From a virus, in the IMG/VR virus record IMGVR_UViG_3300044634_000512, positions 1 to 21,937 of that record: a DNA stretch of 21,937 nt; one strand, written 5' to 3'. This document shows, one piece after another, positions 8,779-17,439 of this stretch. Below the pieces are notes generated by a model. That model was not told where the DNA came from. It made no database searches and saw only the letters and a program-made list of their open reading frames with translations. The first letter of the stretch is position 1, and each line of letters starts with the position of its first letter. The position numbers and the translations under genes were made by a program.

Positions 8779-10068
8779 TTACCTTTGTTCTATCCACGTC
8801 ATTGATGCAATTGCGTTTTTGTTAGATGTAGATGCCGCCGCCACCAATGTCAAGGTGTCACTAACTGTTCCAATGGAGCTTCTTCCAATCTGGAATTGAG
8901 TATCCTTGTCAATGCGAATTGGGCCTCCTCCACCACCTCCAATAACAAACCCTGCGTCAAGAGTGGTGCCGCCAGTAAAAGCCGTTGCGGTAACATTGTA
9001 TTGAACGAAGCTGTTGGCATCTGGCATATTGTTCCAAGTACCGCCAGTAAGGGTGACGTTCCTCACCAGCCTGTAATAGACGTTGGTATTGTCAATCGTG
9101 GCTACTTGGAAGTAAGAGGGCAACACAATGCCCTGTAACTGAGTTGCTTTAAGCCTAATTGAAATCAATGGTCGGTATGTATTGGCCGTGCCAGTATCAA
9201 GCCCAGTAATGGCAGTTTGAATGTTTTGAGCAATACCGAGCTTCTCTGGTTGCCCTTCTGAAACCAGCGAGTTTGACCCTTGGTAAATATAGAAAGGCCC
9301 ACCAGCTTGACCACCAGTAGTGTTTTTGATCTCAATGCGGATAGGCAGGAATGGGGTTCGGCTCCAAGCATTAACAAGGACGTTGGCTGTATTGAAGGTG
9401 TGAACGATAATTGTCTTCCCATCAATGACCCACCCAAACTTTACCTGACCTGCGCCATACCACTCATACTCAAAGCTAACCATCTGTTGCTTTGTTGGGT
9501 CTGCGGTAATTCCGCTAGGCCCATTGCCGTCCAGCTTATCGCCATTCCATTGCGCCCTACCAACTCTCTGAAGGGATGGAGTCCCACCGCTGTTGATGAT
9601 GCAACAGAAGTAATCGCCTGATCCGTCGTCCTCGAAATAGAACCCATCCGAACCATTGAAGAGTCCAAACCTTTTACGGATTCCTGCAACTGGAAGATTG
9701 AGTTTTACCGAAAATGAAAGCGTGGAAGTGCGGCTTGGAATGTACCGCATGGTGTGGATCGTTTGACGTATAACCTCGCTGTTAAGCGTGCTAGTAACTG
9801 CCATATCAACCTCTGATCCAGTAGGGTCGTGAGTAGCCACGCCTCCGTTAGCGGTTGATTCATCCCAAACGTCGCTTTCCTTGCCATACTGGAAGGTGTT
9901 GAAGAAGACTGTCTGGTATGGGCTAACCTTTAGTCTCCCCTTGCTAGTGAAGTCTGCGTTTCCTAGAACCTCATCAGATGAAAGCAGAAGATCGTTGATC
10001 TTTTGAAGACTGCGGCTGGAATCATCATTCTGCCAAGGCGTATTATTCTCTGGAAAATACGCAGGCAT
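8779..10068 (-). CDS. Tail or receptor-binding structural protein with shared N-terminal segment, 429 aa
   Basis: The protein has 429 residues. Residues 1–27 (MPAYFPENNTPWQNDD, then RSLQKIN) almost match the start of the gene at 13350–14345, which suggests a common docking segment on the virion. Residues about 55–260 contain MRYIPSRTSTLSFSVKLNLP and an FYFEDDGSGDYFCC strand pattern, a beta-rich domain I recall from many marine and freshwater phage tail proteins without known enzyme activity. The C-terminal third is also strand-rich with a Gly run (VIGGGGGGPIRIDKDTQFQI). It is probably a tail fibre, tip or baseplate-attached adhesin. The ATG lies three bases after the beta-helix gene. Confidence 0.75.
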   Translation of the reverse strand: MPAYFPENNTPWQNDDSSRSLQKINDLLLSSDEVLGNADFTSKGRLKVSPYQTVFFNTFQYGKESDVWDESTANGGVATHDPTGSEVDMAVTSTLNSEVIRQTIHTMRYIPSRTSTLSFSVKLNLPVAGIRKRFGLFNGSDGFYFEDDGSGDYFCCIINSGGTPSLQRVGRAQWNGDKLDGNGPSGITADPTKQQMVSFEYEWYGAGQVKFGWVIDGKTIIVHTFNTANVLVNAWSRTPFLPIRIEIKNTTGGQAGGPFYIYQGSNSLVSEGQPEKLGIAQNIQTAITGLDTGTANTYRPLISIRLKATQLQGIVLPSYFQVATIDNTNVYYRLVRNVTLTGGTWNNMPDANSFVQYNVTATAFTGGTTLDAGFVIGGGGGGPIRIDKDTQFQIGRSSIGTVSDTLTLVAAASTSNKNAIASMTWIEQR

Positions 10069-14867: not shown

Positions 14868-14902
14868 AAAAGAAAACCCCCTCCAGATTTCTCTAGAGGG
14901 GG
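14868..14902 (-). terminator. Intrinsic terminator after the capsid gene
   Basis: On the minus strand CCCCCTC and GAGGGGG pair perfectly (seven pairs) around a 12-base loop, followed at once by TTTTCTTTT. It lies 26 bases after the stop of the probable capsid gene. This is a standard Rho-independent terminator and separates the capsid unit from the tail block. Confidence 0.92.
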
Positions 14903-14927
14903 CTTCTTGAGTACTAGTTAACTCTGA

Positions 14928-16124
14928 TTAGGAGTTCGTGCAAGACGTAAATGCCAGATCGTTCGGGCAACGCTTGTGGATGATCACCCTACCGAGATAA
15001 GGTGCAATCGGGCGGCTTCCGCTCTGGAAGATAGCCATCCAGCGACCGATCTTGCCCAGAGGGTTCGACACGGCATCACGGATGTTCAGCCAGAAGAACT
15101 GTCCGCTGTAGTAGTACGGATAGTCATCAAAGGCGGCTCCAGCGATGTTCGGCCCAACCTGCTGAACTGCTTCCTCATACACATCGGGGTGGAAGATGTA
15201 TGCGGCCTCAAGAGGCGCAGTATTGTAGGCAGGGTTAGCCTCCCAGCGGTTGGTCGAAAGACCAGCATCACGCTGAATGAACGGATACACTTGGGTGTAG
15301 GTTCCACCACCGCTCGTGCTGTAGGTGAAACGAGGAACCTCAAGGTCGATCATGTGGTAGAAACCACCGAAGGAACGCTCGACACCGAGAGGAGCAATAA
15401 GCTCGCTAGGGGTGGCATAGCGGATGTCCTGACGGAGTTCCGAGTTATCACGAAGGAGTGAGCGGCTGGTTTCGGGCGAGGTGATGAGACCAAGCACGGG
15501 AACACCATTCTCTTTTCCAAGGGCGTTGTGACCAGCACCATCACGGATAAGCTGAACACGGATGGTGTCAAGCTGATCCTGCGAAAGCTTCAGGGTAGGA
15601 ACAGGGACTCCACCAACACCATTAAGGTTGGCGTATTCCGTGCTGAATCCAGCCTGAATCTTGGGAACGAGACGGAGGTACTCCGCACGGCGACGATTAT
15701 CAAGAACAGTCTTGGTAAGCTGGGTAAGCTGTTGGACAGTCTTGGCAATCTGGCTCTCAATCTGGAAGGAGGTCTTCAGATCATCCAAGCAGATGCAAGG
15801 GGTCTGATAAGCCTTCGACTGGAGGTTCCAAGTGCGGACAGTCTGACCGAAGTTAAGACTGGAAGGAGCGGGATCACAACCATTGGAGGAAGTTCCATTG
15901 GAGATACCGACATTCGTCCAATCCGCTTCAACGGAACCAGACAGAACACGCTCAATGGTGATTTCGCTCAAGGTGGTGCCCATTCCCTGCGGAAATTTTC
16001 CGACACGGACAAGGCGGCCCCAAGGGCCATCAACGGAGTAACGCTCATGAACGTCAACGGAGAAGCGATTCGTCTCACGCTGGAACAGGTCGTTAACTGT
16101 GCTACAAGCAATAGAAGCAGACAT
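14928..16124 (-). CDS. Probable major capsid protein, 398 aa
   Basis: The protein has 398 residues. It shows a folded head-protein pattern: NRFSVDVHERYSVDGPWGRL at about 18–37, a polar middle with SLNFGQTVRTWNLQSKAYQT, a long helix FQIESQIAKTVQQLTQLTKT with DNRRRAEYLRLVPK after it (like the spine helix of HK97-type capsids), and a strand-rich end (AAYIFHPDVYEEAVQQVGPN). Size, its own promoter-like site and terminator, and the absence of another candidate in the window favour the major capsid protein. The family is recognised only by overall pattern. Eight bases or more before the ATG there is no Shine-Dalgarno; an AAGGAG is 60 bases upstream. Doubt remains because the portal and scaffold-like genes lie about 11 kb away on the same strand. 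Confidence 0.68.
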   Translation of the reverse strand: MSASIACSTVNDLFQRETNRFSVDVHERYSVDGPWGRLVRVGKFPQGMGTTLSEITIERVLSGSVEADWTNVGISNGTSSNGCDPAPSSLNFGQTVRTWNLQSKAYQTPCICLDDLKTSFQIESQIAKTVQQLTQLTKTVLDNRRRAEYLRLVPKIQAGFSTEYANLNGVGGVPVPTLKLSQDQLDTIRVQLIRDGAGHNALGKENGVPVLGLITSPETSRSLLRDNSELRQDIRYATPSELIAPLGVERSFGGFYHMIDLEVPRFTYSTSGGGTYTQVYPFIQRDAGLSTNRWEANPAYNTAPLEAAYIFHPDVYEEAVQQVGPNIAGAAFDDYPYYYSGQFFWLNIRDAVSNPLGKIGRWMAIFQSGSRPIAPYLGRVIIHKRCPNDLAFTSCTNS

Positions 16125-16194
16125 AAAGTTAAAATAGTTATTGGTTAGGTTTAGTTGGACTGACTCTTTTTCGGAAGAGGCGACTCCTTCCTAC

Positions 16195-16235
16195 GCCTTA
16201 ATTATGGTTGCGACCCCACATACGCAAATTAAGGC
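16195..16235 (-). repeat. Inverted repeat before the capsid gene
   Basis: GCCTTAATT and AATTAAGGC are perfect nine-base arms with a 23-base spacer, and TTGCG/CGCAA form a second five-base pair inside it. The repeat directly follows the -10-like element of the candidate promoter, so it overlaps the predicted transcription start. No T-run follows. It could be an operator or a leader hairpin that stabilises the capsid message. A weaker CTCTT/AAGAG hairpin lies at 16164–16179. Confidence 0.8.
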
Positions 16236-16263
16236 ACTATCACAACTTAGTTAATTCAGTCAA
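16236..16263 (-). promoter_or_regulatory. Candidate promoter of the capsid gene
   Basis: TTGACT at 16263–16258 and GATAGT at 16241–16236 are 16 bases apart, with TGT just before the -10 as in extended -10 promoters. The site begins over the stop codon of the nuclease gene and points toward the capsid gene 112 bases away. The match is good for a sigma-70-type promoter but untested, and the host's consensus is unknown. Confidence 0.5.
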
Positions 16264-16655
16264 CGGGATTCTATCAATTCCTTGATCCTCTGGCAGTTTT
16301 CAATGGTAATCATGCTACCAACTAATCTAATGACTGCCCATCCAGCAAATGCCGCCTCATTATACTTTTCAGCATCCTTGATATATCCACCACCCCTAGT
16401 ATGCCTCCCACCAGACCAAACGCCGCCCTCTATCTCAATGGCCGTTTTCGATTCTAAATGAGCAAAGTCAAATCTCCACTTGCGAGTTTCGTGGAACCTA
16501 TGCTCCTCAACTAGCTGTGGCGAGTTCTGAATGCTTGACCACAGCCTTGCGAACTTTACCTCTAGGACGCTTGGAGGCTTTGGGAGCTTTGATGATCCCT
16601 GCTTCAACGAGCTTGTGGAGCAGTTCTTTTTTGTTTTTGTTGTTTTGTTTTGCAT
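16260..16655 (-). CDS. PD-(D/E)XK/Vsr-like phage nuclease, 131 aa
   Basis: The start is put at ATG (MQNKTTKTKKNCSTSS), giving 131 residues; it has no Shine-Dalgarno, and the conserved part begins only near residue 30. LEVKFARLW at 31–39, RKWRFDFAH at 58–66, AIEIEGGVWSGGRHTRGGGY at 72–91 and KYNEAAFAGWAVIRL at 97–111 match a widespread small phage nuclease family. D63, E74 and E76 are the likely metal-binding residues. Such enzymes may resolve DNA junctions or cut at nicks or mismatches; the substrate is not known here. The first 50 residues are encoded inside the glycosyltransferase gene in another frame. Confidence 0.82.
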   Translation of the reverse strand: MQNKTTKTKKNCSTSSLKQGSSKLPKPPSVLEVKFARLWSSIQNSPQLVEEHRFHETRKWRFDFAHLESKTAIEIEGGVWSGGRHTRGGGYIKDAEKYNEAAFAGWAVIRLVGSMITIENCQRIKELIESR

Positions 16656-17439
16656 ATTCAATAAGTGCGTCCAATGATTCTTGAGGCTTATCCTTTGTTT
16701 CATGTGGTTGCAATGGCGACACAACAACTACGCCAGCACCCGTTGCAGGATCTCCCTGCACACCATTCGGAGATAAACCATCATTAAAAAGAACACCCTG
16801 TTTGTCGGGATGGTATATCACAGCACCTTGCCTTACGCAAGAAGCATCTACCACATCCCTGCGCCACTTCTTTTCTGGAATCCAATCGTGATGGATCAGT
16901 TCAGTTCGTGCCATCCGTGGAATTACATGATGCGCTGATGCGATGTCCCATGCCGTGAACTCGTTATTGTAAATTGAAGGAGCGTACCTAGATAGATCCC
17001 AATGATAAACGGCAATGCCGCTCATGTGGTCTACCCCATTTGGCATGATCCCATTGATCCCAACATAATCTCCCATGAAGAACTGCCCTCGCTTGATGTA
17101 TTCAGCTTCGATGTCATCAATCCAAGATGCCTTGAGAGGAACTGCGTCTGGCTCCATCCATAGAAATGGCTCCTTGGCGATGGTTTCGCAATAGCGAGCC
17201 ACCTGTTCAAATGCCAAGTTGCAGGACAGGGGCCAGCCAGATTGCGTGTGATAACAAGACTCCACAATGGCTTTTCCGAAGGCCGAAGAAAGCGGCTCAA
17301 GCACTCCTTGCGTGGTTGCTTGGTGAACTGGAGCTAGGAGAATAGTGTGCTTGGGATATGATCCAAGCTTGGCTACATGGTTAGCCCAACGCCGCATAAG
17401 CGGCAAATCTCCGTTGTGATATGCGATTGCAACAATCAT
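16507..17439 (-). CDS. GT-A-like glycosyltransferase, 310 aa
   Basis: The start is set at the ATG (MIVAIAYHNGDLPLMRRWAN); an upstream TTG could add nine residues. VAIAYHNGD is the first strand and loop of a GT-A nucleotide-sugar fold. LWMEPDAVPL at 94–102 gives E96-P-D98, a DXD-like metal site. A later FMGDYVGINGIMPNGVDHMS region and AVYHWDLSRYAPSIYNNEFT fit the acceptor side. The last 80 residues are a lysine-rich linker and helical tail. Phage enzymes of this type may glycosylate virion proteins, DNA or host surface sugars; the substrate cannot be told. It lies 56 bases after a virion gene, with a TTGACA promoter-like site between them. Confidence 0.75.
   Translation of the reverse strand: MIVAIAYHNGDLPLMRRWANHVAKLGSYPKHTILLAPVHQATTQGVLEPLSSAFGKAIVESCYHTQSGWPLSCNLAFEQVARYCETIAKEPFLWMEPDAVPLKASWIDDIEAEYIKRGQFFMGDYVGINGIMPNGVDHMSGIAVYHWDLSRYAPSIYNNEFTAWDIASAHHVIPRMARTELIHHDWIPEKKWRRDVVDASCVRQGAVIYHPDKQGVLFNDGLSPNGVQGDPATGAGVVVVSPLQPHETKDKPQESLDALIEYAKQNNKNKKELLHKLVEAGIIKAPKASKRPRGKVRKAVVKHSELATAS

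Follow-up and report, generated by a model that had tools for sequence, protein, structure and literature searches.

In the window, by which we mean the whole stretch of 21,937 nucleotides of the IMG/VR virus record IMGVR_UViG_3300044634_000512 that was analysed, a promoter-like sequence on the minus strand runs directly into a perfect nine-base inverted repeat ahead of an open reading frame (ORF) for a 398-aa capsid-type protein, and the question arises what the stretch between promoter and start codon does. Two answers had been put forward in an earlier note on this DNA, namely that (i) the repeat is an operator that blocks a late promoter; or (ii) it forms a 5' hairpin that guards an abundant message. 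From our point of view, the site is very probably the 5' leader of a phage capsid-type mRNA that opens with tandem pseudoknots, and we tentatively favour the protection of the 5' end as the main role of this array. The features on which the argument is built are the following, with the strands of stem 1 given in square brackets and those of stem 2 in braces:

16258-16263, minus strand: -35 element TTGACT, read from the sequence, overlapping the stop codon of the ORF at 16260-16727
16236-16241, minus strand: -10 element GATAGT with TG before it, read from the sequence
16227-16229, minus strand: predicted (not mapped) transcription start, placed by its spacing from the -10 and -35 elements
16195-16235, minus strand: perfect 9-bp inverted repeat of the earlier note, enclosing pseudoknot unit 1
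16203-16227, minus strand: pseudoknot unit 1, [TTGCG]TA{TGTGG}GGT[CGCAA]{CCATA}, with covariation of both stems
16173-16198, minus strand: pseudoknot unit 2, [AGGCG]TA{GGAAG}GAGT[CGCCT]{CTTCC}, with strong covariation of stem 1 and weaker covariation of stem 2
16125-16172, minus strand: A/U-rich, apparently unstructured linker to the start codon, with a predicted energy of 0.0 over most of its length in the window
14928-16124, minus strand: 398-aa capsid-type ORF served by the leader, a putative capsid gene judging by its context

The promoter and the flagged inverted repeat

The promoter is present exactly as it had been described, with TG ahead of the -10 element and a 16-nt spacer between TTGACT and GATAGT on the minus strand of the window. 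By itself it stands at chance level (22 promoter-like sites in the scanned region vs 21.1 in shuffles); in the comparison with 20 relatives of the window leader, the TTGA of the -35 element is near-invariant and the TAG of the -10 element is kept at the matching place in most. Judging from the promoter spacing, transcription would start with the first base of pseudoknot 1 or just ahead of it. The upstream ORF whose stop codon lies inside the -35 element (window 16260-16727, minus strand) encodes 155 aa and matches phrog_503, a family of unknown function (E 2e-33).

The perfect nine-base inverted repeat, with its arms GCCTTAATT at 16235-16227 and AATTAAGGC at 16203-16195 of the minus strand, was found as described as well and is likewise at chance level, the window holding 1 perfect 9-bp inverted repeat with a loop of 3-40 vs 1-5 in five dinucleotide shuffles. 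A search of the rest of the window returned no further copy of GCCTTAATT. The pairs of the repeat form in 60.2% of the cells of a 20-sequence alignment vs 54.6% after shuffling, and the repeat is confined to the window and its nearest relatives and not conserved. Most of its first arm would, given the predicted start, lie 5' of the transcript and hence not be transcribed. Since the arms are not conserved, the repeat occurs only once and at chance level, and the 84-aa ORF that had been named as a winged-helix protein has no Pfam or PHROGs match, the operator reading is unsupported and was dropped. The second suggestion, a 5' structure guarding an abundant message, survives in part: a conserved RNA structure does lie at the predicted 5' end, and it is a tandem pseudoknot instead of the 9-bp hairpin.

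Tandem pseudoknots in the leader and its close relatives

The same bases that had drawn attention as a repeat hold two tandem H-type pseudoknots of ~26 nt (minus strand, 16227-16203 and 16198-16173), the first of which sits between the two arms of the repeat. Read from 5' to 3', each unit starts with the first strand of stem 1, a helix of 4-6 bp with a closing G-C pair. A UA-type loop leads to the first strand of stem 2, which has 4-7 bp and is nearly free in sequence, and a short linker with U as its last base leads back to stem 1, whose 3' strand is separated from that of stem 2 by 0-2 nt (often A). Compared with a classical H-type fold, the loop that crosses stem 1 is short (0-2 nt), so that the real three-dimensional fold may be a different one, or alternative hairpins may form rather than a simultaneous pseudoknot. 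Plain minimum-energy folding of the window leader, with a program that cannot represent pseudoknots, gave a z of -0.81.

Relatives of the 398-aa protein are encoded at 46 IMG/VR loci (64-97% identical), and most leaders of these loci keep TTGA(C), a TAG-type -10 element and, ~37 nt past the start of the -35 element, two tandem units of the form xGCGUA...UCGCx. The pairing was assessed in a sequence-only alignment, A2, of 20 leaders that had been picked for having both units, so that relatives with a variant first unit (L003, L009, L014, L046 and others) are excluded from it. In A2, the two stems of each unit are paired in 90.4% of the cells vs 80.3% after shuffling, 38 cells carry a double change vs 12.9 in shuffles, and the covariation is 0.322 vs 0.138 after shuffling, with 0 of 500 shuffles attaining 0.322; with the stem registers slid by 1-3, covariation is at most 0.135. 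Individual pairs swap between AU, UA and GC, between GC and AU, or between GC, CG, UA and AU, and G-U cells number 21 vs 8 A-C cells. Two whole-structure measures, namely pairs with a double change and further pair types, were not above shuffles in A2. The weakest helix is stem 2 of unit 2, which is paired in 76% of the cells because its register shifts between relatives.

The leaders vary around this common plan. In those of L003, L009, L014, L046 and L068, the first unit is a variant with an inserted hairpin (TTAGCTGAA[CCAGT..ACTGG]CGAGAGGATAGC...), and the second unit keeps the pseudoknot form. Most members of the window family (for example L019, L020, L029, L033, L043, L044 and L045) have a strong hairpin of 8-9 bp in the stretch from unit 2 to the start codon; this hairpin is absent from the window, L032 and L002. 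No evident Shine-Dalgarno sequence was found in the linker of the window or in the leaders of the rest of its family.

Arrays ahead of N4-gp56 capsid genes

The array is not confined to this family. When IMG/VR was scanned for the pattern without regard to genes and the matches were filtered for the presence of both stems in each of two units, 43 strict arrays remained (loci L090-L189; near-identical contigs counted), 40 of which lie directly upstream of a capsid-type gene that belongs either to the window family or to the N4-gp56 major capsid proteins (TIGR04387); two others are cut off where the contig ends, and L158 is a coding repeat. A second pattern scan added six arrays, five of them before N4-gp56 genes. 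The sixth, L436 (minus strand, array at 9850), consists of two units before an ORF start (MGVDTTTYLPDMKIVN then stop), and the gene that follows may be one more split capsid gene or represent an additional capsid family. Against TIGR04387, with its cutoff of 60 bits, the proteins of L144 and L168 score 143.7 and 134.1 bits, and proteins of the N4-gp56 group also match the phrog_1357 major head protein.

The capsid protein of L144 has relatives at 593 IMG/VR loci, and the best 80 of these 593 were analysed, which gave 61 non-redundant leaders. With a relaxed detector, in which the G-C closing pair and the U before C are fixed and these bases are therefore conserved by construction, the 61 leaders contain 92 units vs 4.7 (maximum 11) after shuffling. 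Of the 61 leaders, 30 have at least two units, vs 0.1 in shuffles and vs 3 of 1075 other sequence windows of the same loci. When the anchors were blind to complementarity, stem 2 formed in 80.5% of the cases vs 33% (maximum 44%) with permuted flanks, and the fourth pair of stem 1 in 83% vs 60% (maximum 69%) after permutation. Among the 92 units there are 70 distinct stem-2 sequences, and the number of units per array ranges from two to five. Two interleaved stems are backed by compensatory change in the window family and in the N4-gp56 group alike. In the N4 set, a comparison of G-U with A-C cells did not separate selection on RNA from selection on DNA.

Without exception, the arrays share the sense orientation of the gene and fall within the predicted transcript, and 15 whole records contained isolated single-unit matches only and no evident second array. 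Nine cultured or fecal N4-gp56-type records have no array, and in the six of them that carry gene annotation the capsid gene follows the preceding gene after ~5-90 nt. Few arrays appeared among the matches listed in a pattern scan of GTDB, and these resemble GC-rich coding or simple repeats. At six loci (L099, L149, L131, L132, L380 and L381), what appears to be an intron with an endonuclease-like ORF interrupts the N4-gp56 capsid gene shortly past its start, and the array keeps its place at the 5' end of the first exon.

The place of the array relative to the promoter is similar in the two groups. In the window family, the distance from the first base of the -35 element to stem 1 is 36-39 nt, counted from the conserved TTGA, which was read separately for L002, L019, L028, L029, L043 and L044, where the automated spacing had taken a later TTGA. 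In the N4-gp56 leaders, the gap from the end of the -10 hexamer to the first unit that was detected, which in some leaders is not the true first one, tends to be 4-7 nt, with a mode at 6 (11 leaders vs 1.1 expected). In both groups, the predicted start coincides with the first base of the first pseudoknot or lies no more than about 3 nt from it. At the other end of the leader, a stem of at least 6 bp, with a 3' arm that terminates at the Shine-Dalgarno sequence, occurs in 33 of the 61 N4-gp56 leaders (6.9 expected), and in 7 of the 18 evaluable leaders the 5' arm of this hairpin shares bases with the last pseudoknot, as could be expected of a switch. In L315, L309, L348, L360 and other N4-gp56 leaders, this hairpin is of the type CTTAAG...CTTAAG and lies in the last ~50 nt before the start codon.

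As to the gene in the window itself, its context and the shared leader suggest that the 398-aa product is a capsid protein. Homology and profile searches, including Pfam and PHROGs, returned no match of the product to any capsid family, its AlphaFold model (pLDDT 34) is too poor for fold comparison, and hhalign of its family against the N4 group gave a probability of 0.3 with shallow profiles. A search of GTDB with the capsid, directed at the host, gave no matches. Just after the ORF, a strong terminator-like hairpin of 15 pairs with a T run (window 14873-14906, minus strand) suggests that the leader serves a short transcript.

Possible roles and relation to known structures

How might such a leader act? 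We propose that transcription from a sigma-70-like promoter would begin with the first base of the first of at least two tandem H-type pseudoknots, or no more than about 3 nt from it, and that these would mainly shield the 5' end of the mRNA from 5'-end-dependent decay of the RppH/RNase E or RNase J type. The extra units would serve as back-up and the coat message would be long-lived, and in the N4-gp56 group the Shine-Dalgarno hairpin would add a translational setting. We infer the shielding because the structure is, by prediction, 5'-terminal, because it is repeated, because its fold is kept over its sequence and because it is reserved for the coat gene. In Bacillus subtilis, RppH requires at least two unpaired 5' nucleotides (PMC3997798), according to work cited in that review a 5'-terminal stem-loop can stabilise Escherichia coli mRNA (PMC3997798), and a compact viral fold halts RNase J1 in vitro (PMC5760640). 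Taken together, the tandem-pseudoknot leader and its role in 5'-end protection form a possible reading, to be held with somewhat less than even confidence.

Two serious rivals have to be weighed. One could imagine, firstly, that the 5' pseudoknots serve as a standby site or translation enhancer to which ribosomal protein S1 or the 30S subunit is drawn, the start codon then being reached past downstream structure. The tisB mRNA of E. coli requires a 5' pseudoknot for the binding of S1 and 30S at its standby site, and SELEX has yielded H-type pseudoknots to which S1 binds (PMC7708055). The frequent hairpin at the Shine-Dalgarno sequence of the N4-gp56 leaders would fit such a role; however, the window family lacks a Shine-Dalgarno sequence, the window itself lacks the downstream hairpin, and enhancement alone would not demand structure at the first transcribed base. 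We consider this explanation rather unlikely. Secondly, the capsid protein or another phage protein could bind the repeated pseudoknots and repress translation, as does gp32 of T4, whose gene 32 leader contains a pseudoknot bound by its own product (PMC3014915). A series of units whose loop bases are conserved would lend itself to cooperative binding, but the proteins of the two groups have no detectable homology by profile comparison (with shallow profiles), and a shared protein ligand is hence not obvious: either a host protein would be needed or the recognition would have evolved twice. Autoregulation seems unlikely to us.

In a broader form of the operator idea, the interleaved inverted repeats would act as DNA and be bound by a regulator of the capsid promoter. 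The array lies just downstream of the promoter, and the G-U to A-C comparison was not decisive in the N4 set, yet a stem 2 that is nearly free in sequence (70 distinct among 92 units) is unsuited to a sequence-specific DNA site, and the constant sense orientation inside the predicted transcript also speaks against this reading, which we regard as very improbable. Several riboswitch classes are H-type pseudoknots, and tandem aptamers whose last unit competes with the Shine-Dalgarno hairpin would account for the bases shared in 7 of the 18 evaluable leaders, but with little conserved sequence for a ligand pocket, a varying copy number and no match to an Rfam riboswitch even at relaxed thresholds, a metabolite-sensing riboswitch is hardly credible.

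Protection of the 5' end, our preferred reading, would make the array a compact, sequence-flexible mRNA part, as would a boost of the message, and in either case a direct test case for the protection of late phage mRNA. The two phage groups in which this one RNA architecture recurs have capsid-type proteins without detectable homology to each other; in both it sits at the predicted first base of the message and is reserved for genes of the capsid type, and hundreds of N4-gp56 contigs in IMG/VR are further candidates.

With regard to known systems, no Rfam 15 family was found at or near the gathering threshold, nor with relaxed thresholds, by covariance models, which hold no pseudoknots and are therefore limited in sensitivity, and the open-access papers covered contained no description of a tandem-pseudoknot capsid leader. 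The STAXI motif, with pseudoknot units two or three times in tandem in phage-related contexts and of unknown function (PMC2864571), resembles the array in being built of tandem pseudoknot repeats. However, STAXI lies near genes for SSB, topoisomerase, antirestriction proteins or XerDC integrase, whereas 40 of 43 arrays here precede capsid-type genes, and the STAXI model (RF01728) matched 0 of 8 array records at E<=10.

The leader of T4-type gene 32 is also an H-type pseudoknot in a DNA-phage leader upstream of the gene for an abundant protein (PMC3014915). It is, in contrast, a single unit 67 nt upstream of the start codon and bound by gp32, whereas two to five units lie at the predicted 5' end here. 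A review from 2010 regarded the gene 32 pseudoknot as perhaps the sole viral one used in translational autoregulation (PMC3014915), and in view of this statement, leader pseudoknots of DNA phages appear little explored. The tisB mRNA shares with the array a pseudoknot near the mRNA 5' end and a downstream structure at the ribosome site (PMC7708055), but the pseudoknot of this bacterial toxin mRNA occurs once, not as an array, and its stem 1 is longer (9 nt).

Lastly, the viral exonuclease-resistant RNAs (xrRNAs) are compact pseudoknotted folds as well, some of them in tandem, that stop 5'-3' exonucleases including the bacterial RNase J1 in vitro (PMC5760640). They differ in their larger, ring-like folds and in their location in the 3' UTRs of RNA viruses. 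One could speculate, with considerable doubt, that the tandem pseudoknots at the start of the coat-protein mRNA protect it from bacterial mRNA decay in many uncultivated phages, that two or more phage groups have acquired or evolved such a 5' shield, and that the array is a DNA-phage counterpart of the xrRNAs.
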